Assembly (NCBI RefSeq): GCF_017876795.1
Contig: NZ_JAGIOR010000001.1
Location: 3,994,501-4,058,500, forward strand
Origin: Rhizobium leguminosarum
Lineage (GTDB): Bacteria > Pseudomonadota > Alphaproteobacteria > Rhizobiales > Rhizobiaceae
Length of the DNA stretch: 64,000 nucleotides
Direction of reading: 5' to 3'
Made by a program: the position numbers and the translations under genes. Positions 1 through 47,892 of the stretch are shown piece after piece. The stretch's first letter is position 1, and each line of letters opens with the position of its first letter. The notes under the pieces were generated by a model. That model searched no databases. It was not told the DNA's origin and worked only from the letters and a program-made list of their open reading frames with translations.

Positions 1-6
1 ACCAGC

Positions 7-1748: not shown

Positions 1749-1762
1749 CGCGCGCCGGCGTA

Positions 1763-3146: not shown

Positions 3147-3153
3147 TATGACT

Positions 3154-3774: not shown

Positions 3775-3778
3775 CACC

Positions 3779-5077: not shown

Positions 5078-5144
5078 GACGATCGCGGGAAATGGGATCG
5101 CCCCGGAGGCAACTTGGCGAACGAGGCGTCGATCGCTGCATCCG

Positions 5145-7870: not shown

Positions 7871-7952
7871 GGCATTTGTATATTCCAAGGCTTGCACGGC
7901 CAAAAGCCACAAAACTTTCCCATGACGCGAATTCATACGGACATCAGCGAAA

Positions 7953-8840: not shown

Positions 8841-8844
8841 ATTT

Positions 8845-8895
8845 GCCCATAATCCTATCGGGAAATCGATTCCGATTTTCGGGGTTATGCGCTAG
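8845..8895. repeat. Dispersed intergenic palindromic repeat, type C copy
   Basis: The stretch between rlmJ and the GST gene contains an imperfect palindrome, CATAATCC...GGGGTTATG, around the core AATCGATTCCGATT. The same core and flanking pattern recurs at 55139-55189. This fits a rhizobial intergenic repeat of the RIME/REP type; identity with a named family was not checked. Confidence 0.6.
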
Positions 8896-8942
8896 CTTCG
8901 GGAATAATCCGCCCGCAGGTCCACAATCTGATCAGGTATCCC

Positions 8943-9539: not shown

Positions 9540-9590
9540 GACGGGTCGGCTCGTAAGGCTTGCGCGCCCGGCAACAACAAGCGAGCAGCA

Positions 9591-9617
9591 AAAAGCCGGG
9601 CGATGTGCCCGGCTTTT
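9591..9617. terminator. Bidirectional intrinsic terminator (GST / ropB)
   Basis: AAAAGCCGGGC (9591-9601), loop GATGT, GCCCGGCTTTT (9607-9617) is a perfect 11-bp stem with A tracts on one side and T tracts on the other. It therefore works for both convergent genes. Confidence 0.88.
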
Positions 9618-9642
9618 CCATGCTTGGACGGTTCTGTTCGGC

Positions 9643-10278
9643 TTAGAACTTGACGCCGATACCGAGCTTGACGCTGTTCTCGTCGTAACCGCGCGAGAAG
9701 CTGCCGGAGTCGAGGTCGTAGTCCTTGCTCTGGTAGTCGGTGTAGCGATATTCGAGGCGCGTCGTGATGTTGTTGGTCACGAAAGCTTCGACACCGGCGC
9801 CGACCGTATAGCCGTAGTTCGTCTTGCTTTCATCCGAGGTGCCGTCGGAAACCTTGACGTTGCCGAGGGCAAGACCGGCCGTGCCGTAGAGCAGGAAGGG
9901 GTTCATGTCGTAGCCGACGCGGCCACGGACGGAGCCGTTCCAGCCATACTTGTTCTTGACGCCGTCTGAGGAGACGTCGTCGCCGCTGTAGCCGAGGTCG
10001 GATTCAACGCCATAAACGATCTGGCCCTGCTGCCAGTTGTAGCCGGTGAACACCTGGCCGCCGAAACCATAGGTGTGGCGGTCGGAACCGAAGTCACCCA
10101 TGTTGTAGGTGCCGGCGCCGCCGAGGTAAAAGCCTTCCCAGCTACCGGCCGGCTTGACCGGAGCTTCCTGGGCGACCGGTGCTTCCGGAACCTGGTCGAC
10201 GGCATCGGCCGCCTGAGCTACCGAGACGCCCGCAATTGCAAAAACGGAGGCCATGAGGCCAGCAATGAGTACACGCAT
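9643..10278 (-). CDS. ropB: Outer-membrane beta-barrel protein, Omp25/Omp31/RopB family
   Basis: The 211-residue protein has a cleavable signal peptide (MRVLIAGLMASVFAIAGVS, cleavage after AQA), then a short Ala/Pro/Glu-rich linker. An eight-strand barrel typical of porin-family OmpA-like proteins follows: WEGFYLGGAGTYNMGDF at the first strand, LEYRYTDYQ in the middle, and VKLGIGVKF with a terminal aromatic at the end. Length and N-terminus match rhizobial RopB, an abundant surface protein that is lost or altered during symbiotic differentiation. AAGGAG lies at good spacing before the ATG. The symbol rests on remembered family resemblance. Confidence 0.85.
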   Translation of the reverse strand: MRVLIAGLMASVFAIAGVSVAQAADAVDQVPEAPVAQEAPVKPAGSWEGFYLGGAGTYNMGDFGSDRHTYGFGGQVFTGYNWQQGQIVYGVESDLGYSGDDVSSDGVKNKYGWNGSVRGRVGYDMNPFLLYGTAGLALGNVKVSDGTSDESKTNYGYTVGAGVEAFVTNNITTRLEYRYTDYQSKDYDLDSGSFSRGYDENSVKLGIGVKF

Positions 10279-10643
10279 ACTTAGTCTCCTTTCAGTCCCG
10301 CTTCGCTTACCATCTGTCTATCAGTGAAGCATTGGCGGGATATTGCCAGATGTCCCTTCCGGATCGAGACTGAAATTGGAACTCAAATGCGGATTTGAAA
10401 GAGCCAAATTGTGATATCATTGTGGCTGCCGCATGGCCGAAATTCGATGTTGCTTGGGCGCAACATACACTTCATTAACCCTACTGAAGAGTTAATCTTC
10501 AAATACTTATTTTAAGAAATCGCATTCTTAAATAATACATAGAATATCCCGCTCACGGACGCAACCGCAACGGCCTATTTATATAATCTCCGCCCGCGCC
10601 TATATAGTCAGCAGACAGACTCGCGGGATCAGAAGGCAGGATT
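10279..10643. other. 365-bp AT-rich divergent intergenic region
   Basis: This lies between ropB (minus) and the short-chain dehydrogenase (plus). It is strikingly AT-rich from 10490 to 10545. Toward the plus-strand gene there are -10-like boxes TATAAT (10582-10587) and CTATAT (10600-10605), but no convincing -35 for either. The long ropB leader could be a site for post-transcriptional control; I see no specific RNA motif. Confidence 0.4.
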
Positions 10644-11407
10644 TTGAACCACAAAAGACTTCGCTCGGCCCTTGTAACTGGGGCCGCCAAAAGAATAGGC
10701 CGGGCAATCGCCGAAGACCTTGCTGCAAATGGCTTTTCGGTCGCAATCCACGCAAACGGCTCCATCGGTGAAGCCGAAGAGCTGGCGGCGGAATTGCGGC
10801 AGAAGGGATATCGGGCGATCGCGATCGAGGCCGACCTTACCGATATCGGCGAAACAAGCGCGCTCGTCGCAAAGGCGTCCGAGGCGCTCGGCCACCTCGA
10901 TCTGCTCGTCAACAACGCATCGATTTTCCGCCAGGATTCGGCCCGCAGTTTCGATGCGCAGGCATGGGCGCAGCATTTCGACATCCATGTGCGGGCGCCC
11001 TCGATTCTCGCTGCGGCCTTTGCCAGTTGCCCGACGATGCGAACGGACTGATCGTCAACATTATCGACCAGCGGGTCTGGGCGCTCAACCCCGGCTTCTA
11101 TTCCTACACGCTTTCGAAGGCGGCACTCTGGACGGCGACGCAGACCATGGCGCAGACCTTTGCGCCGAAGCTGCGCGTCAACGCCATCGGCCCCGGTCCG
11201 ACGGTGCGTAGCGCCCGGCAGTCGGAAGAGGACTTCCAGGCTCAGATCGATGGGCTTATCATGAAAGCGGGGCCGGGATTCGGCGAGTTCGGACAGACGA
11301 TTCGCTTTCTCTTCGACACGCCCTCGATCACCGGCCAGATGATTGCCCTCGACGGCGGCCAGCACCTCGCCTGGCAGACGCCTGATGTGGCGGAGATTAC
11401 GGAATGA
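10644..11407 (+). pseudogene. Short-chain dehydrogenase/reductase (FolM/pteridine reductase-like), frameshifted
   Basis: Two overlapping frames together make one roughly 255-residue SDR. Residues from a TTG start at 10644 give TGAAKRIGRAIA (the TGxxxGxG cofactor loop) and LVNNAS. The second frame (to 11407) gives YSYTLSKAALW with the catalytic Tyr and Lys, then NAIGPGPT. The break is at about 11023-11029, where a lost CCAG from a likely CCAGCCAG would explain the shift; restoring four bases (or one) rejoins the frames. The first frame stops at 11051, before the catalytic residues, so the product as sequenced is non-functional unless frameshifting occurs. AGGCAGG precedes the TTG. It overlaps uvrC by four bases. 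Confidence 0.85.
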
Positions 11408-13446
11408 ACGGACGAAAGCTGCCGGATGGCGGCGTTCTCTACGATGATACGGATGAGAGCGAAGACGATATCGAGGTGGAAAGCGACGTTTCCGCCGTCG
11501 CGCCGCTTGCGACTGCGGTCGACTGGAACGCGGGCAGCCTCAACGAGACCGGGCTTATCGGCGCGGAACTGATCGGCGAATTTGTCAAACGGTTGCCGAA
11601 CAGCCCCGGCGTCTACCGCATGTTCAATGCCGAAGGCGACGTGCTTTATGTCGGCAAGGCGCGCAGCCTGAAGAAGCGCGTCGGCAACTACGCCGTCGGC
11701 CGCGTGCATTCCAACCGCATCGCCCAGATGGTGCGGCAGACGGCGAACATGGAATTCGTGACGACGCGCACGGAAACCGAAGCGCTGCTCTTGGAAGCGA
11801 ATCTGATCAAGCGCTTGCGGCCGCGCTTTAACGTGCTGCTGCGCGACGACAAGTCCTTCCCCTATATCCTCATCACCGGCGACCATCGGGCGCCGGCCAT
11901 TTTCAAGCACCGCGGCGCGCGAGCGCGAAAGGGTGACTATTTCGGACCTTTCGCTTCGGCCGGCGCGGTCGGGCGGACGATCAATTCGCTGCAGCGCGCC
12001 TTCCTGATCCGCACCTGCACCGACAGCGTCTTCGAAACGCGAACCCGTCCTTGCCTGCTCTACCAAATCAAGCGCTGTTCCGGGCCGTGCACCCACGAGG
12101 TCAGCGACCGTGGTTACGGCGAACTGGTGCAGGAGGCGAAAGACTTCCTGTCCGGCAAGAGCCAGAAGGTGAAGTCGCATATGGCCGAGGCCATGAACCA
12201 GGCGGCCGAAGACCTCGACTTCGAGCGGGCGGCGATCTATCGCGACCGCCTGGCAGCACTTTCGCATGTGCAGAGCCATCAGGGAATCAATCCAGCCGGA
12301 GTCGAGGAGGCGGATGTTTTCGCCATCCACCACGAAGGCGGCATTTCCTGTATCCAGGTGTTCTTCTTCCGCACCGGCCAGAATTGGGGCAACCGCGCCT
12401 ATTTCCCGAAGGCCGATCCGCAGCTTTCCGGCGCCGAGGTGCTGAATGCCTTCCTCGCCCAGTTCTACGATGACAAGCCGGTGCCGAAGCAGATCATGCT
12501 GTCGGAAACGATCGAGGAGATGGAACTGCTCGCGGCCGCACTCAGCCAGAAGGCCGCTCACAGGGTTTCGATCCTGGTGCCGCAGCGCGGCGAGAAGCGC
12601 GACCTGGTCGACCATGTCGTCGGCAATGCGCGCGAGGCGCATGGGCGAAAGCTTGCCGAGACGGCGTCGCAATCGCGGCTGCTCGAAGGTTTCAAGGACA
12701 CGTTTGGGCTTGCCTATGCACCGCAGCGCATCGAGATCTACGACAACTCGCATATCATGGGCACCAATGCCGTCGGCGGCATGGTGGTCGCGGGGCCGGA
12801 AGGTTTCGTCAAGAACCAGTACCGCAAGTTCAACATCAAATCGACCGACATCACCCCCGGCGACGACTTCGGCATGATGAAAGAAGTGATGACGCGGCGC
12901 TTCTCGCGGCTGATCAAGGATGAAGGTATTCCCGACCGAACGGCGCAGACCGCGGCTTCCGACGCCGCCGACATGCCCTTCCCGGCCTGGCCCGATGTGA
13001 TCCTGATCGACGGCGGCCAGGGGCAGATGACGGCGGTACGCGCCATCCTCACCGAGCTTGGCATTACCGACAGCGTGACGGCGATCGGCATCGCCAAGGG
13101 TGTCGACCGCGATGCCGGGCGCGAGCGCTTCTTCCCGCCGGGACGCGAGAGTTTTAGCCTGCCGCCGCGCGATCCGGTGCTCTATTTCGTCCAGCGCATG
13201 CGCGACGAGGCGCATCGTTTCGCGATTGGCTCGCACCGGGCACGGCGCAAGAAGGAGATGATCAAGAACCCGCTCGACGAGATCGGCGGCATCGGACCAT
13301 CGCGCAAACGCGCGCTGCTCCAGTATTTCGGCACGGCGAAGGCGGTTTCGCGCGCCGCACTCTCCGACCTGATGACGGTGGAAGGCATATCGGAAGCCGT
13401 CGCCAGGCAGGTCTACAACCATTTCCACGACGACGCCGCGAAATAA
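11404..13446 (+). CDS. uvrC: Excinuclease ABC subunit C
   Basis: UvrC makes both incisions in nucleotide excision repair. The 680-residue protein has the N-terminal GIY-YIG nuclease (PGVYRMFN...[14 protein letters not shown], about residues 68-90), the UVR motif for UvrB contact ([14 protein letters not shown], about 275-290), and the RNase H-like C-terminal nuclease with EIYDNSHI and [10 protein letters not shown]. Tandem helix-hairpin-helix motifs are at the end ([16 protein letters not shown]). It has an acidic N-terminal extension of about 60 residues relative to E. coli, common in rhizobia. Its start overlaps the frameshifted SDR gene, implying historical cotranscription. Confidence 0.97.
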
Positions 13447-35245: not shown

Positions 35246-36274
35246 ATGGCGATACCGTTTTCGCGACCGCTTGCGCTGAGCCAGGGCGACCCCGCCGGCA
35301 TCGGTCCGGATGTTACGCTGATGGCCTGGCTCCGGCGGCGTGAACTCGGGCTGCCGCCTTTCTTCCTGATCGGCGATCCCGATGTATTGGCGTTGCGAGC
35401 ACGCCAGCTCAACCTTTCGGTTTCGATCCGCGAGACGGACAAGGCCAGCGAGGCCGCTGGCCTGTTTGTCGACGCGCTGCCCGTCATGACAGTGCCTGCC
35501 GGTATCGAAGTGGTGGCTGGCGAGCCGCATGTGGCAACGGCGAAGGGCACGATCGCTGCGATCGAGAAAGCGGTCTCGCTTGTCATCGACGGCGAGGCGC
35601 TCGCGGTCGTTACCAACCCGATCTCCAAATCAGTGCTTTACGAGGCAGGTTTCCGGTTTCCCGGCCATACCGAATTTCTCGCCGATCTCGCCGCCAGGGC
35701 GACCGGCAGACCGGTAACGCCTGTCATGATGCTGTCAGGACCAAAACTCCGGGCCATCCCCGTGACCATCCACATTCCGGTTCGAGACGTGCCGCAGGCG
35801 CTGACCGGCGAACTGATCGTGGAGACCTGCCGGATCGCCCATGAAGACCTGAGGCAGCGCTTCGGCATCGCGGCGCCGCGGCTCGCCGTTGCCGGCCTCA
35901 ACCCGCATGCGGGCGAAGGCGGGACGATCGGCAAGGAGGACGAGCATGTCATCCGCCCGGCGATCGAGCGCCTGCGCGACGAGGGCATCGATGCGATCGG
36001 CCCCCTGCCCGCCGATACGATGTTCCATGACGAGGCGCGGGCGCGATATGACGTCGCTGTCTGCATGTATCACGATCAGGCGCTGATCCCGGCCAAGGCG
36101 CTGGGTTTCGACGACAGCGTCAACGTGACGCTCGGGCTTCCCTTCGTGCGCACCTCGCCGGATCACGGTACCGCTTTCGGCATTGCCGGCAAGGGACTGG
36201 CGCGCGAGCAGAGCCTCGTTGCGGCGCTGAAGCTTGCCGCCCAGCTCGGCCGCAGCGCGGAAGGCCGCCGCTGA
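35246..36274 (+). CDS. pdxA: 4-hydroxythreonine-4-phosphate dehydrogenase
   Basis: PdxA oxidises 4-phosphohydroxy-L-threonine in the DXP-dependent pyridoxal phosphate pathway. The 342-residue protein shows [13 protein letters not shown] at the N-terminus, the metal-binding histidines (FPGHTEFL and [10 protein letters not shown]) and [10 protein letters not shown] near the end. It follows surA by six bases and overlaps rsmA by one base (TGATG). Confidence 0.96.
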
Positions 36275-37134
36275 TGGCAGCACTCGATGGCCTGCCGCCG
36301 CTTCGCGACGTCATCCAGCGTCACGGCCTCGACGCGCGCAAGGCGCTCGGGCAGAACTTTCTGCTCGACCTCAACCTCACGCAGAAGATCGCCCGGACGG
36401 CCGGCGCGCTCGAGGAGGCGACCGTCTTCGAGGTCGGCCCTGGCCCCGGCGGGCTGACGCGGGCGATCCTCGCGCTCGGCGCCAAGAAGGTTATCGCCAT
36501 CGAGCGGGATAGCCGCTGCCTGCCGGCACTCGCCGAGATCGCCGATCATTATCCCGGCCGGCTGGAGGTGATCGAAGGCGATGCGCTGAAGACCGATTTC
36601 GAGGCCTTGGCGCCGGAAGGCCCGATCAAGATCATTGCCAACCTGCCCTACAATGTCGGCACGCAGCTTTTGGTCAACTGGCTGCTGCCGAAAGCCTGGC
36701 CGCCATTCTGGCAGTCGCTGACGCTGATGTTTCAGAAGGAAGTCGGCGAGCGTATCGTCGCCTGCGAAGACGACGACCATTACGGCCGCCTCAGCGTGCT
36801 TTGCGGCTGGCGGACGGAGGCACGCATGGCCTTCGACGTGCCGCCGCAAGCCTTCACGCCGCCACCGAAGGTAACGTCGACGGTCGTGCATCTGACACCC
36901 CGCGAAACCCCCATCCCCTGCGCTGTCAGCAATCTGGAAAAGGTGACGCAGGCGGCCTTCGGCCAGCGTCGCAAGATGCTGCGTCAAAGCCTGAAACCGC
37001 TCGGCGGTGAGAGCCTGCTCGTCAAGGCCGGGATCGACCCGGCCCGGCGGGCAGAGACCCTGTCCGTCGAGGAATTCTGCCTTCTCGCAAACAGCTTAGT
37101 GATAACGAAGGCAAGCCGCGAAGTCGGCACCTAA
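36274..37134 (+). CDS. rsmA: 16S rRNA (A1518/A1519-N6,N6)-dimethyltransferase
   Basis: RsmA (KsgA) dimethylates two adjacent adenines in helix 45 of 16S rRNA late in small-subunit assembly. The 286-residue protein has ALGQNFLLD (24-32), the SAM-binding [12 protein letters not shown] and the catalytic NLPYN motif (about 128-132). Conserved company with pdxA, surA and lptD supports the call. A dispersed repeat begins at its stop codon. Confidence 0.96.
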
Positions 37135-37372: not shown

Positions 37373-38500
37373 TCACGATGCGCCATTGAGAATATGGTTC
37401 AGCGAAGCGAGAACGCGATCATTCTGCTTGGGCGTTCCGATGGTGACGCGCACCCAATTTTCGTAGCCCGCCTCGTGCCACGGCTTTACGATGATCCCGT
37501 CTGAGAGCAGCGCCTTGGCGACATGCTCGCTCGGAAGGGTGGTCCGGAAGAAAAGAAAGTTAGTCTGGGAAGACGCGGTGATGACGCCGAGCTCGTCCAG
37601 ACCCCGCGCCAACCGTGCTCGCTCGGCTTTTGTGCGTTCGACGGATTGCTTCATCCATTGTTGATCGGCAAGCGCGGCGACGGCCGCGACCTGGGCTGCA
37701 GCGTTCACGTTGAACGGCGGCTTTGCAGCGGCAACGATACGGGCGATCTCACGGTTGAAACAGGTCGCATAGCCCACCCTGAGGCCTGCAAGGCCATAGG
37801 CCTTAGAGAAGGTTCGAAGCACGATCGAAGGAAAATTGCCGCTGCGAACCAGCGCCATCCCGTCCGTCTGCCCTTCTTCCATATATTCGAAATAGGCTTC
37901 GTCCAGCACGAAGAGTGTTTGCGGCCGCGTGGCGGCCACCAGCCTGTCGAGCTCGCTGCGGGTCAGCGCCGCACCGACCGGGTTTGACGGAGACGGAAGG
38001 AAGAAAAGCGCCGGGCCGGTTGCAAGCGCCGCTTCCAGAGCCGGGATGTCGAAGCCCATATCCGTCGTCATCGGTACCTTGGTGACCCGTGCTCCCGCTG
38101 CAAGCGGCTCGATCTCGTGCAAGCCGAAGCTCGGCGTCACGGTCAACGCCGATGAACCCGGTACGAGGAAGGCACGGGAGATGGCGGCGACCATCTCCTC
38201 CGAGCCATTGCCGACGACGATTTGGCCGGGCGGCAGGTCAAGCACACGGGACAGGGCGTTTCGCAGTTCGGTGCAGGCTGGATCCGAATATCGGGACGGG
38301 TTGAAGGCCGACGATGCCAGTGCTCCCATCACCTTCGGCGAGCAGCCGTTCGGATTTTCATTGCTGGCGAGTGCCGCGATGTCGTCATGGCCGCTCAACT
38401 GACGCGCAAGGCCGATATTCATGCCTGCATTGTAAGTCGGCAAGGCCGATATATGCGGGTTGGGGACGATCCCTGGCTTTGCGGATTCATTGACTGACAT
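37373..38500 (-). CDS. hisC: Histidinol-phosphate aminotransferase-type PLP enzyme
   Basis: The 375-residue fold-type I aminotransferase has the PLP-binding Asp in VLDEAYFEY, the Schiff-base lysine in FSKAYGLAGLRVGY and the HisC-like PSNPVGA. HisC enzymes transaminate histidinol phosphate, and many rhizobial paralogues also act on aromatic or other amino acids. It is 70 bases downstream of a flavin reductase gene on the same strand, inside a catabolic-looking cluster. A role in histidine synthesis is therefore not assured. Confidence 0.87.
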   Translation of the reverse strand: MSVNESAKPGIVPNPHISALPTYNAGMNIGLARQLSGHDDIAALASNENPNGCSPKVMGALASSAFNPSRYSDPACTELRNALSRVLDLPPGQIVVGNGSEEMVAAISRAFLVPGSSALTVTPSFGLHEIEPLAAGARVTKVPMTTDMGFDIPALEAALATGPALFFLPSPSNPVGAALTRSELDRLVAATRPQTLFVLDEAYFEYMEEGQTDGMALVRSGNFPSIVLRTFSKAYGLAGLRVGYATCFNREIARIVAAAKPPFNVNAAAQVAAVAALADQQWMKQSVERTKAERARLARGLDELGVITASSQTNFLFFRTTLPSEHVAKALLSDGIIVKPWHEAGYENWVRVTIGTPKQNDRVLASLNHILNGAS

Positions 38501-38570
38501 CGATCAAGCGCTTTCGAATTTCCATGGGACGGGTGACCAAGGGAGAGGGATTGCTGCGGGACGTCTTGGT

Positions 38571-39116
38571 TCAGGAGGCCGGGGCAACGTCCGCGAGATG
38601 GCGAAAGGCGCCGTTCCAGTAAAGAAGCGGCTCAGCCCCTCTCCGCAGCGTGATCGCCCTCACCCTTCCAATCAATATGGCGTGGGAATGCATGTGGATG
38701 GTCTCGTCCAGTTCGCAATCGAGAGCCGTCAGCGCGCCGTCGAGCACCAGCGCGCCGGTCTCAAGCGTCGACCACGCGCCACCCTCGTAGCGGCGAACGC
38801 CGCTTCTTCCCCCGTAACCGGCAAATGATTGCGCCACGCTCTGCTGGTCATGCGCAAGCACGTTGACGCAGAAGTGTCTGTGGCGCTGCAGCGCCGGCCA
38901 CGAAGACGATCCGCGATTGACGCTGACGATGACGGGGGGGACGTCGGCCGACAATGATGACACCGAGGTCGCCGTAAAACCGGTCCGGCCATCACCGATA
39001 CCCACGGTGATGACGCTAACGGCGCCGGCGAGATAGCGCATCGATGCCTTGAAAAGGTCCTGGTCGACCACCTGCAACTCGGCAGGGATCTCGGGAAGCG
39101 TTATTGAAACTGTCAT
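38571..39116 (-). CDS. Flavin reductase-like domain protein
   Basis: The 181-residue protein is of the HpaC/NtaB flavin reductase family: RYLAGAVSVITVG at the start, TGFTATSVSSLSADVPPVIVSVN for the flavin-binding strand, FCVNVLAHDQ and HSHAILIGRV near the end. It supplies reduced FMN to a two-component monooxygenase. The frame is open to 39311, but the upstream part is the remnant of a monooxygenase C-terminus; ATG 39116 is the natural start. It forms a unit with the downstream hisC. Confidence 0.9.
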   Translation of the reverse strand: MTVSITLPEIPAELQVVDQDLFKASMRYLAGAVSVITVGIGDGRTGFTATSVSSLSADVPPVIVSVNRGSSSWPALQRHRHFCVNVLAHDQQSVAQSFAGYGGRSGVRRYEGGAWSTLETGALVLDGALTALDCELDETIHMHSHAILIGRVRAITLRRGAEPLLYWNGAFRHLADVAPAS

Positions 39117-39188
39117 CGGGGATCCTCGATAGTCTTTCAGGAAGCCCCGACCGGAGCCTCCGAGACATTGCGTCCTGGCGCAGACGGA

Positions 39189-39307
39189 TTTGCGTGCGGC
39201 GGAGTCGCGGTTGACCGGCATCGAGAGACCCAAGTTCTCCCGCCGCGTCTTTCCTTCGTATTCGAACAAGCTCCGATGCCGAGTTTCAGTTTGTCCTGCC
39301 GAGGCAT
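39189..39307 (-). pseudogene. Internally deleted NtaA/SnaA/DszA-type monooxygenase remnant
   Basis: Reading the minus strand, an ATG at 39307 with AAAGGTGA before it encodes MPRQDKLKLGIGA, like the N-terminus MARKMKLG of the intact monooxygenase at 40738-42075. Within a few bases, in another frame, follows LFEYEGKTRRENLGLSMP, nearly identical to that protein's C-terminus (EYEGSTLRENLGLSMP). About 400 codons between are missing. The remnant lies directly upstream of the flavin reductase, which would have been its partner. Confidence 0.8.
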
Positions 39308-39444
39308 GCAATCACCTTTCAAAGGCTTTGGGTTGAGCGTGCTTGTCGTGCGCCGATTGCTGATCAATGTGTCTTCGGCAGCTCCCCTCACATTCAATAG
39401 GCCGGGCCTGCCAAGGCAACAAGGCGGCAACAAATGCGTTCATT

Positions 39445-39459
39445 TTTAGATTTTCTAAA
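39445..39459. promoter_or_regulatory. Candidate operator TTTAG-N5-CTAAA (copy 1)
   Basis: TTTAG (39445-39449), ATTTT, CTAAA (39455-39459) lies between the monooxygenase remnant (minus) and the aminotransferase (plus). The same element is found at 42158-42174 upstream of the intact monooxygenase. It fits a T-N11-A LysR-type box. Confidence 0.5.
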
Positions 39460-39573
39460 CGGCGGGAGATCGTCGATGTCGGCGTTGTGAGCGCCTGTCT
39501 TATGGTCTTCGACAAAGCGGTTGAGAAGGCGAGCGATATCGGTGTAGCAATCGATTTCAAAAGGATAATCGAT

Positions 39574-40737
39574 ATGCCAATCGCTGCCGCCAATTCGCTC
39601 GTTGCTCGTCTTTCACCTCCACCAATTCCCTCTGTCATTGCCTGGAGCCGCGAATATACCGGTGGAAAGGGCGCGCTCATCGATCTCTCGCAAGCCGTGC
39701 CGGGCTATCCGGCGCATCCGGAGATGCTGCGGCTACTCGGCGAGGCCGCCGCATCGCAGGCCATGACCGGCTACGGACCGATCGAGGGAGAGGCGGTCTT
39801 GCGGACGGCCTATGCGCGACATGTGAGCGGGCTTTACGGTGCGCCCGTCGGTGCTGAGAATGTCCACATCACCTCCGGCTGCAATCAAGCCTTCATGTGC
39901 GCGGCCATCGCGCTTGCAGGCGCCGGCGAAACCGTCGCACTGACCAATCCCTTCTATTTCAATCACGATACGACACTGGCAATGCTCGGGATCAAGCGTG
40001 CGTTGGTCGCATGTGATGCGGCGAATGGATTTCTTCCCGATCTCGCATCCGCCGAACAAGCGCTAGCTGCCGGAGCGCGCGCCCTGGCGATCGTCACGCC
40101 CAACAATCCGAGCGGGGCAGTCTATCCGCCGGCATTGTTGCATGACCTGTTCCTGTTGTGCCGGAAATACGGCGCCTGGCTGATCCAGGACGAGACCTAT
40201 CGCGATTTCCTGGCGGAGGGTTACGGGCCTCCGCACGCGCTGCTCTCCGAGCCCGGATGGGAGGAAACGCTCGTTCTCCTTTACAGCTTCTCGAAGTCCT
40301 TCTGCATTCCCGGCCACAGGCTCGGCGCAATTACGGCGGGTCCGAAGCTGCTCGCCGAGATCACCAAGGTCATGGACAATATGCAGATCTGCGCGCCGCG
40401 CTCAGCGCAGCATGCCGTCGCCGAGGCCTTGCCGGTGCTGGCAACCTGGCGGGCCGATAACCGGCTGGAAATCGCCAGGCGGGCGGATGCGTTGAAGACG
40501 GTGATCGTTGAGTTGCCCGGCTGGGATATCGCCGCGATCGGCGCCTATTTTGCCTTCATCCGCCATCCCTTCGCCGATCAGCCGTCCACGGTGGTCGCCG
40601 AGCGGCTTGCGAAACAGGCGGGCATCATCTCGATCCCCGGCGCTTATTTCGGCGAAGGGCAGGAGCGATATCTGCGCCTGGCCTTTGCCAACGCAGATAC
40701 GGCTTCGATCGGCCTGCTCGGTGAACGCCTGCGCTGA
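39574..40737 (+). CDS. Class I/II PLP-dependent aminotransferase
   Basis: The 387-residue aminotransferase has an aspartate aminotransferase fold: YGPIEGEAVLR, VTPNNPSGA, the PLP Asp/Tyr region IQDETYRDF and the lysine in YSFSKSFCIPGHRLG. ATG 39574 is preceded by AAGGAT; the open frame begins earlier within intergenic DNA and the remnant's promoter region. It converges on the monooxygenase gene with adjoining stops. The substrate is unknown; the cluster suggests an amino acid brought in by the nearby ABC transporter or one of its products. Confidence 0.87.
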   Translation: MPIAAANSLVARLSPPPIPSVIAWSREYTGGKGALIDLSQAVPGYPAHPEMLRLLGEAAASQAMTGYGPIEGEAVLRTAYARHVSGLYGAPVGAENVHITSGCNQAFMCAAIALAGAGETVALTNPFYFNHDTTLAMLGIKRALVACDAANGFLPDLASAEQALAAGARALAIVTPNNPSGAVYPPALLHDLFLLCRKYGAWLIQDETYRDFLAEGYGPPHALLSEPGWEETLVLLYSFSKSFCIPGHRLGAITAGPKLLAEITKVMDNMQICAPRSAQHAVAEALPVLATWRADNRLEIARRADALKTVIVELPGWDIAAIGAYFAFIRHPFADQPSTVVAERLAKQAGIISIPGAYFGEGQERYLRLAFANADTASIGLLGERLR

Positions 40738-42075
40738 TCAGGCGGGGGCCGCGAACCGATTGGCGGGCATGGAGAGCCCGAGATTTTCGCGAAGCGTCGA
40801 ACCTTCATATTCCTCGCGGAACAATCCGCGGCGGCGCAGTTCCGGCAAGACAAGCGTTACGAAATCGTCGAGGCTTGCCGGCAAGGTCGGGAACATCAGG
40901 ATGAAGCCGTCGGCGGCGCGCGTATCGAACCATTCCTCCATGAAGTCGGCGATTTCGGCCGGCGTGCCGGTCATGCCGTTGCCCGTATGCTTTTCCGCAT
41001 AATGGCGGATGAGTTCTCCTACGGTGCGGCCGTTCTTGACGAAGTCGACCAGTTCGTCGAAGAGCGCCCGCGAGCCCTTGGGCGCGTCCGGGAGCCGGTC
41101 CATCGGAAAAGGCTTGTCCAGAGGCACGCCTCGCAGATCCGCCTCCAGGAATTCCGAAAGCATCAGGCGACCAACATCGGGATGCATCTTGTCGATCAGG
41201 TAATCGACCTTCGCCTGCGCTTCGGCTCTGGTCTCACCGACATTGACGACGACGCCCGGCATGATCTTGAGATCATCCGGGTCGCGTCCGTAGGCCGGCA
41301 TACGTTTTTTCACATTTTCATAGAAGGCCCGGTTGCGGTCGATGTTGGACGCGAGGCTGAAGACGATCTCCGCGGTGCGCGCCGCCATTTCCATGCCGGG
41401 TTCGGAGCCGCCGGCCTGCGCGATAACCGGGCGGCCCTGAGGTGTCCGGGCGATATTGAGGGGACCGCGCACTTGGAAATGCTTACCCTTGTGGTTCAGC
41501 GTATGATGCTTGGTCTTGTCGTAATAGACCCCGCTCTTGCGGTCGAGAAGTAGGGCTCCGTCCTCAAAACTATCCCACAGGCCGAAGACGACGTCGACGA
41601 ATTCGTTGCCTCGCTCATAGCGCAAGGCGTGCGGATCCAGGCCCTCGCGATTGAAATTGTAGCCGGTCTCGTCATGGTCGGAGGTGACGACATTCCAACA
41701 GGCGCGGCCGCCGCTGAGATGATCTATCGAGGCGAAGAGGCGCGCGACGTTATAAGGCTCGTAGTAGCTCGTCGACACGGTTGCGACCAGACCAAGATTC
41801 TGTGTGGTGACCGAAAGCGCCGATAGCAGTGAAAGCGGCTCGAAGCGGTTCATCTTGGTGGGAATACGGGCGAGAGCATCAGGATCGCCGACGGCTGCGG
41901 CGGGTGAATCCGCCATGAACATGAAGTCGAACTTCGCCGCCTCCGACCTTTTGGCAACGTCAAGAAGATGGGCAAAGTCATTGGCGCCGTTGATATCGCT
42001 GGCAGGATGAAGCCACGATGCCGGATGGAAGCCGAACGTGTAGACAAAGGTGCCGAGCTTCATCTTACGCGCCAT
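40738..42075 (-). CDS. NtaA/SnaA/DszA-family FMN-dependent monooxygenase
   Basis: The 445-residue protein is a bacterial-luciferase-like monooxygenase: MKLGTFVYTFGFHPASW at the start, DHLSGGRACWNVVTS in the middle and PVIAQAGGSEPGM further on. Its length and C-terminus (LRENLGLSMP) are typical of the NtaA/SnaA/DszA branch. These enzymes use FMNH2 from a partner reductase to cleave C-N or C-S bonds in compounds such as nitrilotriacetate, dibenzothiophene sulfone or S-substituted cysteines. GGAGG lies ten bases before ATG. The flavin reductase at 38571 is the likely partner. Confidence 0.9.
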   Translation of the reverse strand: MARKMKLGTFVYTFGFHPASWLHPASDINGANDFAHLLDVAKRSEAAKFDFMFMADSPAAAVGDPDALARIPTKMNRFEPLSLLSALSVTTQNLGLVATVSTSYYEPYNVARLFASIDHLSGGRACWNVVTSDHDETGYNFNREGLDPHALRYERGNEFVDVVFGLWDSFEDGALLLDRKSGVYYDKTKHHTLNHKGKHFQVRGPLNIARTPQGRPVIAQAGGSEPGMEMAARTAEIVFSLASNIDRNRAFYENVKKRMPAYGRDPDDLKIMPGVVVNVGETRAEAQAKVDYLIDKMHPDVGRLMLSEFLEADLRGVPLDKPFPMDRLPDAPKGSRALFDELVDFVKNGRTVGELIRHYAEKHTGNGMTGTPAEIADFMEEWFDTRAADGFILMFPTLPASLDDFVTLVLPELRRRGLFREEYEGSTLRENLGLSMPANRFAAPA

Positions 42076-42157
42076 GAAATTCCAGCCTCCAAGATTGATG
42101 ATTGCGCAAATTATCGCCGCGCCGATTTTTCGAGCAATAGTGCTGAACTATCTTTCA

Positions 42158-42174
42158 TTTTAGTTTTTCTAAAA
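42158..42174. promoter_or_regulatory. Candidate operator TTTTAG-N5-CTAAAA (copy 2)
   Basis: TTTTAG (42158-42163), TTTTT, CTAAAA (42169-42174) is a perfect inverted repeat in the 113-bp gap between the LysR gene and the monooxygenase gene it precedes. It shares sequence with 39445-39459. Confidence 0.5.
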
Positions 42175-42188
42175 GATTGGCAAGATCT

Positions 42189-43121
42189 TTATTGCGGGGC
42201 GGAAATCCGCGCCTGCTGCCGCGAAATCGTCATCAGCCAATCGCGGAAGGCGGCACCATGGGATTTCTGTAGCGCTGACCTATCCCAGGCCAGGAAATAA
42301 CTTTCGCGAAGCGGGATCCGGACATCGAGGGGAATGACGAGCGTCTGAGCTTCCAGCTCATCGGCGATCATCGACATTTGCGCGAGGACGATGCCACGTT
42401 TTTTGACGGCAGCGTCGATCGCGCGGCTTGATAAGGTGAAGGACAGTCCAGGCGTCGTCTCCCTAAGAGTCACGCCCACTTTCGCGGCGAAGTCGACCCA
42501 GCTGGGGTACGGGGTGAAGTGCCTTTCCCATTCGACATGCAATAGCGGATAGTCGAAAAGTTCAAATGCCGACGGCTTAGGCTTTTGAATGAGCGCCGGC
42601 GAGCAGGCGGGCACGACCCAGTCGCGGAATAGCTCGCTGTAATGCTCGTGCTGCAACACGTCCGATCCGTAGCTGATGCGAAAGTCGATTTCATCGAAGC
42701 CCATACGTGGCTCACTGTCGCGACCGATGATCCGGACATGTGCATCCGGATGAAGCGCCTGCCAACCGAAGATAAGCCGGCCGATCCACTTATTGACGAC
42801 GGAAGACAAGGCACTCAGGACGAGGGCATTTTCATTGCGTGCCCGCTCCAGCATACGCTCGGCAATCGCGAATTGCTCGAAGCCTTTGGATATCTCCTGA
42901 TGATACAGCCTGCCCCAGAGGGTCAGCTCCGCGGTGCGGCCGTTGCGCTCCAGAAGCGTCACGCCCAGAAAGCTTTCGATCTTGCGCACCTGCTGGCTGA
43001 TCGCACCGGGCGAAACGTTCAATTCCAGGGCAGCGGCCGTCACGCTACCGCAGCGGCCGACGGCTTCGAAGGCCTGCAAGCCTTTAAGCGGAATGGCTTT
43101 GAAGCGGCGGGGCGCACTCAC
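42189..43121 (-). CDS. LysR-family transcriptional regulator
   Basis: The 310-residue protein has an N-terminal helix-turn-helix (LQAFEAVGRCGSVTAAALEL then SPGAISQQVRKIESFLG) and a C-terminal periplasmic-binding-protein-like sensor domain. The start is a GTG overlapping the GntR stop by four bases. It resembles the GcvA branch. It is followed on the same strand by the monooxygenase, whose upstream region contains a T-N11-A palindrome, the usual LysR target shape. Confidence 0.93.
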   Translation of the reverse strand: MSAPRRFKAIPLKGLQAFEAVGRCGSVTAAALELNVSPGAISQQVRKIESFLGVTLLERNGRTAELTLWGRLYHQEISKGFEQFAIAERMLERARNENALVLSALSSVVNKWIGRLIFGWQALHPDAHVRIIGRDSEPRMGFDEIDFRISYGSDVLQHEHYSELFRDWVVPACSPALIQKPKPSAFELFDYPLLHVEWERHFTPYPSWVDFAAKVGVTLRETTPGLSFTLSSRAIDAAVKKRGIVLAQMSMIADELEAQTLVIPLDVRIPLRESYFLAWDRSALQKSHGAAFRDWLMTISRQQARISAPQ

Positions 43122-43864
43122 GTTGCGTTTCTCCGGGACGAATTGTCGGACATTTCCTGCTCGGTCGGCTGAAAGTCACCGGCGAATTGAAAGCGGTCGC
43201 CAGGATGGGTGATTTCGACATAGCTGACGGTCCGGCCATTCTGCCATGTCTGGCGAATGAGCGTCAGGCAGGCGTCACCACGCTCGGTCTCGAGCAGCCT
43301 GGCGGTTGCCGGATCTGCGGAAACGGCGCGAATGATGTGCCTTGCCTTCGACCACGGCACCTGCTCCAGCAGCCATTTGGCCGGCGGAACGGATGCGAAG
43401 TTTTCATTCCTGGCAAGCGGTACGGCATCAAGCATGATGATGCGTCGCTCGATGGCGTTCGGCTTGCCGTCGACGAGATGCAGACATTGCAGCTTGAGAA
43501 CCTCCGCACCCGGCCTTTCACCCAATAAGACGGCGCCTGACGTATCCAGTTTCTCTATCTGCCGCTTCATGATGCGGTGGTCGTGCTTGTGTCCGGCAAG
43601 CTCCGCCGCGGTACTGATATCCTGAATATCCATGACCGTGCGATCGATCTGCTGCGAGGCGACAAAGGAGCCTGTCTTGCGTCGCCGCACGATCATGCCG
43701 CGCTCGGCGAGCGCCGACAGCGCCTTGTTGACGGTCATCCGCGAGCATTGGTATTGGTCGGCGAGTTTATGCTCGATCGGGATACGCTGGCCAGGTTTCC
43801 AATCGCCATTCATGATCTTCGCCTCGATGTCTCCGAAGATTCTGTGATGAATTGAGACCAACAC
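43118..43864 (-). CDS. GntR-family regulator, HutC subfamily (UTRA domain)
   Basis: The 248-residue protein has a GntR winged helix (IEAKIMNGDWKPGQRIP, then YQCSRMTVNKALSALAERG) and a UTRA ligand-binding domain with the HutC-typical VPWSKARHIIRAVSAD and EVTHPGDRFQFAG-like ending. HutC proteins usually sense urocanate or related acids and repress uptake and breakdown genes. The start is a GTG at 43864. It is divergent from the amino-acid ABC transporter, whose promoter carries a TGT-N4-ACA site, and is translationally coupled to LysR. Confidence 0.92.
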   Translation of the reverse strand: MLVSIHHRIFGDIEAKIMNGDWKPGQRIPIEHKLADQYQCSRMTVNKALSALAERGMIVRRRKTGSFVASQQIDRTVMDIQDISTAAELAGHKHDHRIMKRQIEKLDTSGAVLLGERPGAEVLKLQCLHLVDGKPNAIERRIIMLDAVPLARNENFASVPPAKWLLEQVPWSKARHIIRAVSADPATARLLETERGDACLTLIRQTWQNGRTVSYVEITHPGDRFQFAGDFQPTEQEMSDNSSRRNAT

Positions 43865-43961
43865 TCACCTCGATCCCGCGACGGCGTTCAGATCCTGGCC
43901 TCGATGCGAGGCGGTTTCGGCCAAAGGTCCGGCACGTTTTTTGCCTTTCATGACTTTTACA

Positions 43962-44002
43962 TTGACACTGTATGCCGAGCTATATCTATTTGTATAGACA
44001 AA
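43962..44002 (+). promoter_or_regulatory. ABC transporter promoter with GntR-type operator
   Basis: TTGACA (43962-43967) is followed about 15-17 bases later by a weak -10 (TATCTA/TCTATT). The palindrome TTTGT-ATAG-ACAAA (43989-44002) overlaps and follows it. The TGT-N4-ACA half-site pattern matches HutC/FadR-type GntR operators. Confidence 0.55.
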
Positions 44003-44086
44003 AGCGGGCCAGAGAAGCTCGTTCGGCGGGAATACGCTGGGGAACCTGGACTCTTCCGCTGGAAGGGCAAAACTGGAGAGAAGATC

Positions 44087-44914
44087 ATGAAGAAGAATTC
44101 ATTGCTCAAAGGGTTGATGAGCGCCGCGTTCCTGCTCGGGGCGACACTTTCCGCGCACGCTGCCGATACGCTGGCGGCGGTCAAGGCCGCCGGCACCCTC
44201 AAGGTCGGCACCGAGACGGCCTTCGCACCCTTTGACTTCATCGACGCTGGTGAGCATGTCGGATTGAACGTCGATCTTTTCGACGAGATCGGCAAGGAGC
44301 TCGGTGTGAAGATCGAGTGGGTGACGTTGCCCTGGGACGGCGTTTTCCCTGCTTTGGAAGCCGGAAAATTTGACGTGGTGGCCGGCCCGGCGACGATTAC
44401 CAAGAAACGCATGGAGCGCTATCGCTTCACGCCGCCGCTGGCAGAAGCGACCATAGCCATTCTCAAAAAGGCGGGCGATCAAACCATCAGCAAGCCGGAA
44501 GACATCGCTGGCAAGAAGATCGGCGTCGGCAAGGCAACCTCGCAGCTCGATCAGCTCAAGGAATTCTCCGAGACATTGCCGACGAAAGCGGACATTCGTG
44601 AATATCCGGCCTTTACCGAATCCTATGCCGATCTTGCCGCCGGTCGCATCGCCGGCGTGGCAAACTCTCTGCCGAACATTGCTTTCGTCGCCAAGCAGCG
44701 TGAGGGTGTCTTCGAAGTCGTGCTACCGCCCTTCGGCAAAAAATCCTATTTCGGCTTTATCGGCCTGAAGGATACCGATCACGCGCCGCTAATGGATGCG
44801 ATCGATGCCGCGATGCTGAAGATAAAGGCGGACGGCAGAATGGCCACGCTGCAGAAGAAGTGGTTCGGCGCGACCTTCGACACCCCGGATTCGGTCAAGG
44901 ATCCAGCATTCTGA
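44087..44914 (+). CDS. Polar amino-acid ABC transporter substrate-binding protein
   Basis: The 275-residue periplasmic protein has a signal peptide (cleavage near AHA-ADT) and a family 3 solute-binding fold: TLKVGTETAFAPFDFID, GLNVDLFDEIGKELGVKIEWV and the PATITKKRMERYRFTPP hinge region. It binds an amino acid or related compound. ATG 44087 has GGAGAG before it; the frame is open upstream through the promoter. It is followed by a strong hairpin and two permease genes. Confidence 0.93.
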   Translation: MKKNSLLKGLMSAAFLLGATLSAHAADTLAAVKAAGTLKVGTETAFAPFDFIDAGEHVGLNVDLFDEIGKELGVKIEWVTLPWDGVFPALEAGKFDVVAGPATITKKRMERYRFTPPLAEATIAILKKAGDQTISKPEDIAGKKIGVGKATSQLDQLKEFSETLPTKADIREYPAFTESYADLAAGRIAGVANSLPNIAFVAKQREGVFEVVLPPFGKKSYFGFIGLKDTDHAPLMDAIDAAMLKIKADGRMATLQKKWFGATFDTPDSVKDPAF

Positions 44915-44931
44915 TCGATTGATCGTCATCA

Positions 44932-44966
44932 CCAATCATGCCCCGGATGTGCCTGGGCATGATTGG
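44932..44966 (+). promoter_or_regulatory. Intercistronic hairpin between binding protein and permease
   Basis: CCAATCATGCCC (44932-44943), an 11-base loop, GGGCATGATTGG (44955-44966) is a perfect 12-bp stem without a T tract. It probably protects the upstream mRNA or partly terminates, giving more binding protein than permease. Confidence 0.65.
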
Positions 44967-45013
44967 AAGCAGATCCGGTTTCATGACCGCCAAGGGGACG
45001 ACATCCAACCCTC

Positions 45014-45655
45014 ATGTCCTTCAAACTCTTCGAATTGCTGCTGCAGGCGTCGATCTATACGGTCACGATCAGCATCGTATCAATCCTGATCGGTTTCGCC
45101 ATCGCGATCCTGCTGTCGGGCATGCTGCTTTCGCTGCGGCGCCATCTGGTGTTGCCTGCCCGGATTTTTGTCAGCTTTTTCCGCGGCGTGCCGCTGCTTG
45201 TGCAATTGCTGCTGATTTACAATCTTTTGCCAGTTATTGGCATCAATGTGCCAAGCGTTGTGGCGGCAGTCGTCGGCCTGTCGCTCTGTACCGCCGCCTA
45301 TCAGGCGGAGAACCTGCGGGGCGGCTTTGCCAGTGTTCCCGTCGGGCTGGTCGAATCCGCTGAAATGGTCGGCTTGACGCCCGGTCAGATCTTTCGCCGC
45401 ATCAAGGTTCCGACCGCCCTTCGCCTGACATTGCCTGCCCTCGTCAACGAGGCGATCCTCATTCTCAAGGCGTCGTCTCTCGTCTCCGTCGTCGGCATTG
45501 TCGAATTGACGCGCATGGCGCAGGATCTCGCTGGCAGCACCTTTCTGCCCCTGCAGCTCTTCGCGTCTGCCGGATTGATCTATCTGGTGATCAACTGGAT
45601 CGTCGCATTGGCCGGCGGCCTGATCGAACGCTCTCTTCCTGGAGCACCCCGATGA
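45014..45655 (+). CDS. Polar amino-acid ABC transporter permease (first)
   Basis: The 213-residue inner-membrane protein has five hydrophobic segments. It has the His/Glu/Gln permease signature, including the FFRGVPLLVQLLLIYN motif and an EAA loop (VESAEMVGLTPGQIFRRI) that contacts the ATPase. It overlaps the second permease by ATGA, and the two probably form a heterodimer. Confidence 0.92.
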   Translation: MSFKLFELLLQASIYTVTISIVSILIGFAIAILLSGMLLSLRRHLVLPARIFVSFFRGVPLLVQLLLIYNLLPVIGINVPSVVAAVVGLSLCTAAYQAENLRGGFASVPVGLVESAEMVGLTPGQIFRRIKVPTALRLTLPALVNEAILILKASSLVSVVGIVELTRMAQDLAGSTFLPLQLFASAGLIYLVINWIVALAGGLIERSLPGAPR

Positions 45656-46320
45656 GCTTCGACATCAACGTCCTCATCGACCAATGGCCTGCGATCGCCA
45701 GCGGCGCGGGCGTCACGATCATGATTTGGGTTTTCGGCACGATTGCCGCCGCCGCCCTTGGCTTTCTGCTGGCTGTCGCCAGGCAATATGGCGGCCTGGC
45801 GGTCGATAAGGCGCTCGGTCTTATCGTCGCGGTCCTGCGCGGTACACCCTTCCTGATCCAGATCTTCCTAGTCTACTATGGCGGTCCTTTCATCGGTCTG
45901 TCGCTCGATCCCCTACTCGCCGGGCTGATCGGCATCTCGATCTATGGTGCGGCCTATTTTAGCGAAATTTTCCGCTCCGGCTTTCGAGCCGTCCCAAGGG
46001 GGCACATCGAAGCCGGTGAATGTGTCGGCCTCACGCAAGGGCAGATCGTCAGGCGCATCCTGCTGCCGGAAATGACCATGCTGGTGCTGCCGCCGTCGGT
46101 GAACATGGCAGTGATCCTCATGAAGGAGACGGCAGTACTTTCGATCATTACCGTGCCGGAACTGACGGCGACATTGAGCGCCATAGGCTCGCAGCAATAC
46201 GCCTTCGTGGAAGCGCTTTCCGCGCTGGCGCTCTTTTATTGGGTGCTGGTCGAATTCACCGGCCGGCTTGGCAATCTCGCCGAAACGAAACTTTCCAGAT
46301 TCAGGTTTTTCAACGCATGA
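45652..46320 (+). CDS. Polar amino-acid ABC transporter permease (second)
   Basis: The 222-residue permease of the same family has LRGTPFLIQIFLVYYGG and the EAA loop IEAGECVGLTQGQIVRRI. It is coupled to both neighbours by ATGA overlaps. Typical of HisM/GlnP-type importers. Confidence 0.92.
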   Translation: MSFDINVLIDQWPAIASGAGVTIMIWVFGTIAAAALGFLLAVARQYGGLAVDKALGLIVAVLRGTPFLIQIFLVYYGGPFIGLSLDPLLAGLIGISIYGAAYFSEIFRSGFRAVPRGHIEAGECVGLTQGQIVRRILLPEMTMLVLPPSVNMAVILMKETAVLSIITVPELTATLSAIGSQQYAFVEALSALALFYWVLVEFTGRLGNLAETKLSRFRFFNA

Positions 46321-47108
46321 GCGTTCCCGCAATCGCAGTCAAAAATCTTATCAAGAAGTTCGGGGATTCCACTGTCCTGCAAGGCATCGACCTCGAGATA
46401 GCGCAGGGACAAGTCTCTTGCCTGATCGGCCCTTCCGGCTCCGGCAAGAGCACGCTTTTACGCTGCATGGCCTTTCTCGAAGAGGCAACCCGCGGCACGA
46501 TTGCCATCAATGGCGAGGTACTTGGCTTCAGCGAGAACGCCGAGGGTGTGAGGGAGCGCGTTCCTGCGGCGACGAACCGAACAATCCGCGCCCAGATCGG
46601 CATGGTCTTCCAGCAGTTTAATCTTTGGCCGCACATGACGGCGCTCGGCAATGTCAGCGAGGCACTAAAGATGGTTCACAGGTTGAGCCGCAAACAGGCC
46701 GAGGATCTGGCGTTGGCTCAGCTTGTGAAAGTCGGGCTGGAAGCGCGTGCCGGGCACTATCCCTCGCAGCTTTCCGGCGGCCAGCAACAGCGTGTCGCCA
46801 TTGCCCGCGCATTGGCGCTCAAGCCGAAGATCATGCTGTTCGACGAACCAACCTCTTCGCTCGATCCGGAGCTAACGGGCGAGGTGCTGAATGTCATGCG
46901 CGATCTGGCGGCCGAGGGCATGACCATGGTCGTCGTCTCACACGAGATCGGCTTCGCCGCAACGGTCGGCCAGCAGATCATCTTCCTCGACCACGGCAAG
47001 GTACTGTTTACCGGGGCGCCGCAAGACGTGTTCAAGAAACCGCGAAATCCGCGTCTGGAGCAGTTCCTAGACACCTATCTCGATCGCGGCGCGTCCATGC
47101 TTCTCTAA
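46317..47108 (+). CDS. Polar amino-acid ABC transporter ATP-binding protein
   Basis: The 263-residue ATPase has Walker A GPSGSGKST (about 37-45), the Q-loop, the signature LSGGQQQRVAIARAL, Walker B IMLFDEPTSSLDPE and the switch His in VVSHEIGFA. It is a typical GlnQ/HisP-family subunit completing the transporter. ATG 46317 overlaps the second permease stop; the longer open frame lies in the permease gene. Confidence 0.95.
   Translation: MSVPAIAVKNLIKKFGDSTVLQGIDLEIAQGQVSCLIGPSGSGKSTLLRCMAFLEEATRGTIAINGEVLGFSENAEGVRERVPAATNRTIRAQIGMVFQQFNLWPHMTALGNVSEALKMVHRLSRKQAEDLALAQLVKVGLEARAGHYPSQLSGGQQQRVAIARALALKPKIMLFDEPTSSLDPELTGEVLNVMRDLAAEGMTMVVVSHEIGFAATVGQQIIFLDHGKVLFTGAPQDVFKKPRNPRLEQFLDTYLDRGASMLL

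Positions 47109-47229: not shown

Positions 47230-47892
<663 letters not shown>

Follow-up and report, generated by a model that had tools for sequence, protein, structure and literature searches.

The NtaA/SnaA/DszA family of flavin mononucleotide (FMN)-dependent monooxygenases (TIGR03860) comprises the nitrilotriacetate and ethylenediaminetetraacetate (EDTA) monooxygenases and YtnJ/CmoJ, and in the Bacillus ytm/ytn-type operon YtnJ is encoded alongside an N-acetyltransferase/deacetylase and sulfur genes. NtaA-family genes are common in soil bacteria such as the one considered here, and for most of them we know of no substrate. Degradation of N-tau-methylhistidine and of ergothioneine has reportedly been described by Seebeck and colleagues. 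Among polar amino-acid binding proteins, HisJ holds the alpha-carboxylate of its ligand with Arg77 and the alpha-ammonium with Asp161, and NocT binds nopaline, a secondary amine. The subject of this analysis is a ten-gene module of Rhizobium leguminosarum, identified in a window of 64,000 nucleotides (the whole stretch of DNA that was analysed, C1:3994501-4058500 in a 7.58-Mb genome of 9 contigs). The module comprises, in order, a HisC-like aminotransferase and a flavin reductase (- strand), a PRK07550-family aminotransferase (+), an NtaA-type monooxygenase, a LysR regulator and a HutC regulator (-), and the binding protein, two permeases and ATPase of an ATP-binding cassette (ABC) importer (+). 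In our judgement a link of this module to histidine catabolism in some form is likely, and chances are about even that it is a side branch of that pathway, in which a substituted histidine-type compound would be imported, oxidatively dealkylated and transaminated. One widespread NtaA subfamily would thereby be tied to histidine catabolism, and the candidate substrates, at first any amino acid with an N- or S-substituent, would shrink to a few histidine derivatives.

The histidine setting is proposed because of the HutC regulator and the neighbourhoods of related loci, which contain genes of histidine (hut) and ergothioneine (ert) catabolism. HutC, which the first-pass annotation had been unable to place, is the main clue. 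This GntR/UTRA protein (43118-43864, - strand) scores 266.4 bits against TIGR02018 (cut-off 220) and 125 bits against a second HutC model, NF011575, under the cut-off of 424. Only three proteins of the genome exceed the HutC cut-off, the one in the module and two at C3:303-305 kb beside the hut operon, which is located on another contig, C3 (hutU at C3:296 kb); the next best protein reaches 114 bits. Besides its two HutC genes, this hut locus (C3 303-310 kb, L158 and L159) has a separate polar amino-acid ABC importer and, downstream of this importer, a second histidine ammonia-lyase-like gene (453 bits, cut-off 539).

Relatives were identified by a scan of GTDB species genomes that gave 144 relatives of the monooxygenase, from which the best 80 loci were kept; all counts out of 80 refer to these, with co-occurrence counted at fixed identity thresholds. 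NtaA was found together with the four ABC genes in 72 of the 80 loci, and cumulatively with HutC in 68, LysR in 50, flavin reductase in 43 and the PRK07550 aminotransferase in 29. The expectation that these genes would co-occur in relatives was borne out, as importer, HutC, LysR and NtaA stand together in those 50 orthologous loci, which is not chance. Counted singly, the flavin reductase is present in 48 loci (mostly directly after ntaA), a ureohydrolase in 40, the PRK07550 aminotransferase in 36 and the HisC-like aminotransferase in only 3. From these counts, the core of the module is the transporter, HutC, (LysR) and NtaA, the flavin reductase and the aminotransferases being variable.

The genes hutF, hutI, hutH and hutU adjoin the unit in 7 of the 80 loci (L065, L066, L071, L075, L077, L081 and L082), and thiourocanate hydratase and thiohydantoin desulfurase adjoin it in 6 (L068, L069, L072, L074, L076 and L079); ErtD adjoins two of these six ert-linked units and an ErtE-type gene occurs in six loci. 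The control consisted of 66 loci of other NtaA-family genes (6 from one set and 60 from another), none of which, at the thresholds applied, contains a binding protein of the module type or a HutC, and hut adjoins just one of them, L149, where two tandem NtaA-family genes lie inside the hut cluster (1-10796). Curated cut-offs were applied to the hut and ert neighbours of representative loci: in L065 hutU, hutI, hutH and hutF reach 965, 439, 724 and 625 bits (cut-offs 375, 298, 539 and 413), in L072 the hydratase and desulfurase reach 1049 and 599 bits (930 and 440), and in L068 ErtD and ErtE reach 774 and 573 bits (600 and 520). No hutU other than the one adjoining the module was found in the L065 and L081 genomes. 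In both L081 and L082, hutD is directly followed by the monooxygenase, with the transporter beyond it. Gene order differs between the Xanthobacteraceae and Rhizobiaceae arrangements. In two other loci, L059 and L067, a class III CoA-transferase and a 3-hydroxy-3-methylglutaryl-CoA (HMG-CoA)-lyase-like gene adjoin the transporter near NtaA, and CoA-transferase matches (30-35%) occur among hut genes in L262, L274 and L149.

The genome also has an ert cluster of its own at C1:93.9-101.3 kb (L137), with histidine ammonia-lyase-like, ErtD-, ErtE- and desulfurase-like genes and a thiourocanate hydratase at C1:99.7 kb (1054.9 bits, cut-off 930); the histidine ammonia-lyase-like protein heading this cluster is probably an ergothionase. 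A 75% relative of this lyase lies elsewhere in the genomes of the ert-linked loci L068 and L072, therefore the monooxygenase need not replace the ergothionase step.

Two types of conserved palindromic operator, both missed in the first-pass annotation, were identified in the module. A LysR-type palindrome, TTTAGATTTTCTAAA, is located at 39445-39459, upstream of an ntaA relic and the flavin reductase and HisC-like genes (- strand), and a second one at 42159-42173, upstream of the intact monooxygenase; TTTAGNNNNNCTAAA occurs twice in the 64-kb window, both times inside the module, against a mean of 0.00 in 100 shuffles. The corresponding box, TTTAGN5CTAAA, is present upstream of NtaA in 52 of the 80 loci, in 49 of them together with a LysR match above 35% identity, and it is the longest conserved block in the aligned NtaA upstream regions of L009-L064 (56 regions, 46 without near-copies). 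The LysR regulator of the module (42189-43121, - strand; PF00126/PF03466, GcvA being its best model, under the cut-off) is predicted to read this box. The putative HutC-type operator is TCTATTTGTATAGACAA at 43985-44001 (+ strand), upstream of the transporter; it contains TGTATAGACA, and there is one copy of its full form, TCTATTTGTATAGWCAA, in the window. The core ATTTGTATAG, itself used as the search word, precedes the binding-protein gene in 66 of 73 loci, the seven misses being L059, L067, L081, L082, L084, L087 and L088.

The canonical HutC site is given as TGTA-N2-TACA in PMC12977541. The window site TGTATAGACA has one mismatch to it, and the genome's own hut locus carries the exact site: TGTATATACA is found in its hutF/hutI region and differs by one base from the window operator. 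In L081, GTATAGAC sites are located at the hutF/hutI, binding-protein and HutC promoters, and in L082 at the hutF/hutI, NtaA and binding-protein promoters; each locus has three, with shuffle means of 0.04 and 0.05, and none of 300 shuffles reaches 3. In L065, L066 and L077 the sole match of the GTATAGAC type falls within the coding sequence of NtaA and was disregarded, and L071 and L075 have none. The transporter and the monooxygenase thus have different operators in Rhizobium, a HutC-type site and a LysR-type box respectively, as would be expected if they answered to unrelated signals, the outcome named in the first-pass annotation as speaking against a single module; in L082, on the other side, both stand behind the same HutC-type site as hut.

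The importer is complete, with a binding protein (SBP_bac_3, 44087-44914), two permeases (45014-45655 and 45652-46320) and an ATPase (46317-47108), all assigned by Pfam and adjoining on the + strand. Aligned with HisJ and ArgT of E. coli, the binding protein has retained the carboxylate Arg77 and shows no acidic residue at the position of Asp161, where its segment reads ANSLPN and the residue is Asn or Ser depending on gap placement. NocT has Ser at this position, and the binding protein of the genome's own hut locus keeps the Asp. Among 80 module-type rows (at least 44% identity; L250 and L270 are from one genome) 79 are readable, none has the Asp, and the aligned module rows retain Arg77. 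The binding proteins of the Rieske-type clusters described below do have the Asp (L062, L251, L259 and L271). This pattern fits a ligand without a free alpha-ammonium, that is an N-substituted amino acid, a betaine or a 2-hydroxy or 2-oxo acid. The first-pass annotation had supposed an N- or S-substituted amino acid, and its N-substituted half agrees with the binding protein while the sulfur half is set aside.

The monooxygenase (40738-42075, - strand) is the intact copy of the NtaA/DmoA-family gene and scores 520.2 bits against TIGR03860 (cut-off 279.7). The HisC-like aminotransferase (37373-38500, - strand; TIGR01141 hisC, 291.9 bits, cut-off 276.55; NF003496, 393.5 bits, under the cut-off of 540) has histidinol-phosphate aminotransferases as its best PDB matches. 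Its homologues (E up to 1e-110) occur in 19 of 346 genomes of the family, own genome included. In 15 of the 18 homologue loci beyond the own genome the order is LysR (45-62% to that of the window), a Rieske oxygenase, a reductase and then the HisC-like gene; of the three loci outside this plan, one is a 3.1-kb contig and the other two have homologues of 52-53% identity. The exact TTTAGN5CTAAA box is present in 14 of the 18. The gene between the Rieske and HisC-like genes encodes a flavin adenine dinucleotide (FAD)/2Fe-2S reductase in all 15 genomes, and the Rieske protein is of the VanA_C type, its relatives of solved structure including dicamba demethylase and NdmA. The arrangement in the window, box-ntaA relic-flavin reductase-HisC-like, follows the same plan as box-Rieske-reductase-HisC-like, so that two oxygenase systems, unrelated in both oxygenase and reductase, occupy one operon slot. 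The Rieske oxygenase itself has no match in the genome of the window at E 1e-110. Oxidative dealkylation is proposed because it is what both oxygenase classes have in common, and for an imidazole amino acid it is in our judgement evenly balanced between right and wrong; the oxidative cleavage supposed in the first-pass annotation fits both the NtaA family and these demethylase-type enzymes of relatives. The genomic context of the homologues argues for a catabolic role of the HisC-like aminotransferase, which is predicted to act on imidazole-type 2-oxo acids.

Twenty further Rieske loci were inspected, 12 of them from genomes already covered; hut adjoins four (L262, L270, L274 and L275) and a module-type binding protein is present in four (L264, L265, L270 and L273). 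Rieske genes adjoin hut in L149 too. L270, from the genome of L250, has in one row a ureohydrolase, HutC, the module transporter, the HisC-like gene, reductase, Rieske oxygenase, LysR and the hut operon, without the exact box. Two side observations concern these clusters: in L251 (4563-6527) and L062 (14125-16089), both of the Rieske type, the ABC ATPase is fused to an N-terminal DUF2817 domain, and the hut cluster of L149, from another alphaproteobacterial family, contains two Rieske oxygenases, one of them GbcA-like and under its cut-off.

The ntaA relic, also missed in the first-pass annotation, is a decayed second copy at about 39186-39307 (- strand). The monooxygenase has matches at 8 places in its own genome, counting the gene itself and the relic; the relic was found as a 32-residue match to the C-terminus (73% over residues 412-443), and the genome's own NtaA paralogues are at most 47% identical to the monooxygenase. 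As read from three reading frames upstream of the flavin reductase, it has a start, MPRQDKLKLG, from 39307, an internal deletion with frame change and a C-terminal fragment at 39287-39186. Genome G045 (L145) has at the same place a less decayed relic, in which more of the N-terminal part and an internal piece survive. Because the palindrome TTTAGATTTTCTAAA precedes the relic, the flavin reductase (38571-39116, - strand; RutF/HpaC-like, PF01613 Flavin_Reduct, under the listed equivalog cut-offs, start set at MTVSIT, which is common to L009) and the HisC-like gene look like the remaining tail of an operon once headed by its own monooxygenase. L145 also carries a guanidino-acid hydrolase-like ureohydrolase (10490-11539) between this second operon and the PRK07550 gene.

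The sequence of events that would join these elements begins with HutC, which may sense a urocanate-like imidazole compound and control the importer through the site at 43985. The ligand of the importer, to judge from the binding protein, would be derived from an imidazole amino acid and carry no free ammonium group at its alpha position; a histidine with an N-methyl or N-carboxyalkyl substituent is the likeliest candidate, and the 2-hydroxy or 2-oxo acid a less likely one. Through the TTTAGN5CTAAA boxes, LysR would control both the intact monooxygenase and the flavin reductase/HisC-like pair, with the reductase supplying reduced FMN (FMNH2). The NtaA-type enzyme would then oxidatively dealkylate the substrate, as its family and the exchange with demethylase-type Rieske oxygenases suggest, and the aminotransferases would convert any resulting 2-oxo acid back to histidine or a histidine analogue, which would enter the hut pathway. 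More narrowly and only tentatively, being wrong more probably than right, the enzyme could carry out the oxidative N-demethylation or N-dealkylation of a substituted histidine, for example N-methylhistidine, hercynine or a histidine opine, and be interchangeable with a VanA-type Rieske demethylase in the slot under one LysR operator and feeding hut. Any single named substrate is doubtful at best in our judgement. Mimosine, trigonelline, canavanine and imidazoleacetate pathways were also considered and dropped, as no result supported them.

Three other explanations share some of this evidence. The importer could take up an N-substituted arginine or guanidino amino acid, with cleavage by the monooxygenase, formation of a guanidino 2-oxo acid by the PRK07550 aminotransferase, release of urea by the ureohydrolase and HutC merely recruited. 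The ureohydrolase of 40 loci, which passes TIGR01230 and not PRK02190 and is nearest to guanidino-acid hydrolases (3-guanidinopropionase and guanidinobutyrase), the match of the PRK07550 aminotransferase to the guanidino enzyme GntC, under its cut-off, and the best model of the binding protein, lysine/arginine/ornithine and likewise under its cut-off, all agree with this. However, the ureohydrolase is missing from the window and from L009 while importer, regulators, monooxygenase and both aminotransferases remain there, this reading accounts neither for the adjacency to hut and ert nor for the HutC-type operators, and in the one genome of L250 and L270 the ureohydrolase occurs together with a hut operon; we consider this explanation unlikely. 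The salvage of S-substituted cysteines, in which a YtnJ/CmoJ-type monooxygenase frees sulfur from S-alkyl cysteines, was the analogy drawn in the first-pass annotation. YtnJ (1yw1, E 8e-98) is among the closest solved relatives of the monooxygenase, but nitrilotriacetate monooxygenase (3sdo) is an equally good match; permeases and binding protein match cystine transporter models, under the cut-offs. No sulfur-amino-acid gene was found among the identified recurrent neighbours, which are a part of the neighbour clusters, and despite the closeness to YtnJ those neighbours that curated cut-offs can name include hut and ergothioneine-catabolism genes. The analogy is consequently given up, and this route is very unlikely.

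The link to hut could also concern HutC and the importer alone, a histidine transporter under a HutC paralogue, with the monooxygenase as an unrelated passenger under LysR. The different operators in Rhizobium agree with such an arrangement. It is nevertheless quite unlikely, since the importer and HutC stay with the monooxygenase in 68 of the 80 loci, since in L081 and L082 the monooxygenase is flanked by hutD and the transporter and has, in L082, a HutC-type site of its own, and since the binding protein has no Asp at the position where HisJ, ArgT and the own hut-locus binding protein keep it.

Several observations weigh against the side branch of histidine catabolism proposed here. In Rhizobium proper no hut or ert gene adjoins the module, and the 13 loci linked to hut or ert are all confined to a single part of the NtaA tree, which comprises 24 loci, therefore the independent joinings are few; the tree, with three distant paralogue rows on long branches, compared hut against ert rows only, 70 rows being unlabelled, and its counts do not date the hut link. 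The transporter operator, in a matrix search, was not found near hut in L075 nor at the own hut locus. Some unrelated binding proteins in the same loci, for example one in L075, also lack the Asp, therefore its loss is a hint and not a signature. As to the shared slot, the genomes with NtaA (14) and with Rieske (28) among the 346 do not overlap, but about 1.1 shared genomes are expected and therefore this carries no weight for mutual exclusion. L062 carries both systems, and for this reason they may act in sequence there. The hut-linked Rieske genes of L274 and L275 are more distant (59%) and have no LysR, reductase or HisC-like partner. Finally, the ureohydrolase and the second aminotransferase also fit arginine-type compounds, and the proposal accounts for neither.

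As described in the first-pass annotation, the module is packed between genes that point towards it, 36274-37134 (+) and 47230-47892 (-), which we take to be rsmA and gmk from the names given there, and Pfam and NCBIfam agree with its family names for all ten genes. The PRK07550-family aminotransferase (39574-40737, + strand) scores 573 bits against NF005732 (cut-off 366). The approximately 60 bp before its start are far better conserved than the preceding sequence (39500-39573; 21 distinct upstream regions, 36 before removal of near-copies, 14 rows shown), and a 2-base length difference between groups suggests that this stretch is non-coding, possibly a regulatory element. No tRNA and no Rfam family at the gathering threshold was found in the window. 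The top match of the species-genome scan is Rhizobium phaseoli JHI366 (99%). Among 60 genomes of the genus, own included, 31 have an orthologue of at least 82%, the next best among the matches listed being 54%; among 40 genomes of the order no match listed exceeds 48%, and across the class (385 genomes, E up to 1e-120) no NtaA relative above 50% turned up apart from the window's own. In Rhizobium johnstonii 3841 the locus is on plasmid pRL10; a formaldehyde dehydrogenase lies near it, which was not counted, as flanking gene clusters recur in only 7 or 8 of the 80 loci. Among the papers listed in a literature search that also covered locus tags, none on the module was seen, and PMC3333776, PMC6421345 and PMC11103875 gave no relevant match to its tags.

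Compared with known systems, the module resembles the hut operon in its HutC over the cut-off, a putative operator one base off the canonical one and physical joining in 7 of the 80 orthologous loci, whereas it has no hut enzyme gene (hutH, hutU and hutI were absent from its ten genes by Pfam/NCBIfam scan) and the own hut operon is elsewhere. With the ert genes it shares the hydratase and desulfurase adjoining six orthologous units; in contrast, neither enzyme was found among the ten genes by the same scan, and the own ert cluster is located elsewhere. The opine uptake systems of the NocT type are similar in lacking Asp at the alpha-ammonium position, but the module has no opine oxidase or dehydrogenase among its ten genes (Pfam/NCBIfam). 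The N-acetyltransferase/deacetylase and sulfur genes of the ytm/ytn type were not found among the ten genes of the window, to which this search was confined. The likeness to the NtaA/SnaA/DszA enzymes comprises the family assignment over the cut-off, the closest structures and the paired flavin reductase, whereas the orthologues of the module are found in presumably HutC-controlled and partly hut- or ert-linked loci. The VanA-type Rieske demethylases (vanillate and dicamba O-demethylases and the N-demethylase NdmA), although of a protein family different from NtaA, occupy in relatives the same slot before the HisC-like gene and behind the same LysR box.

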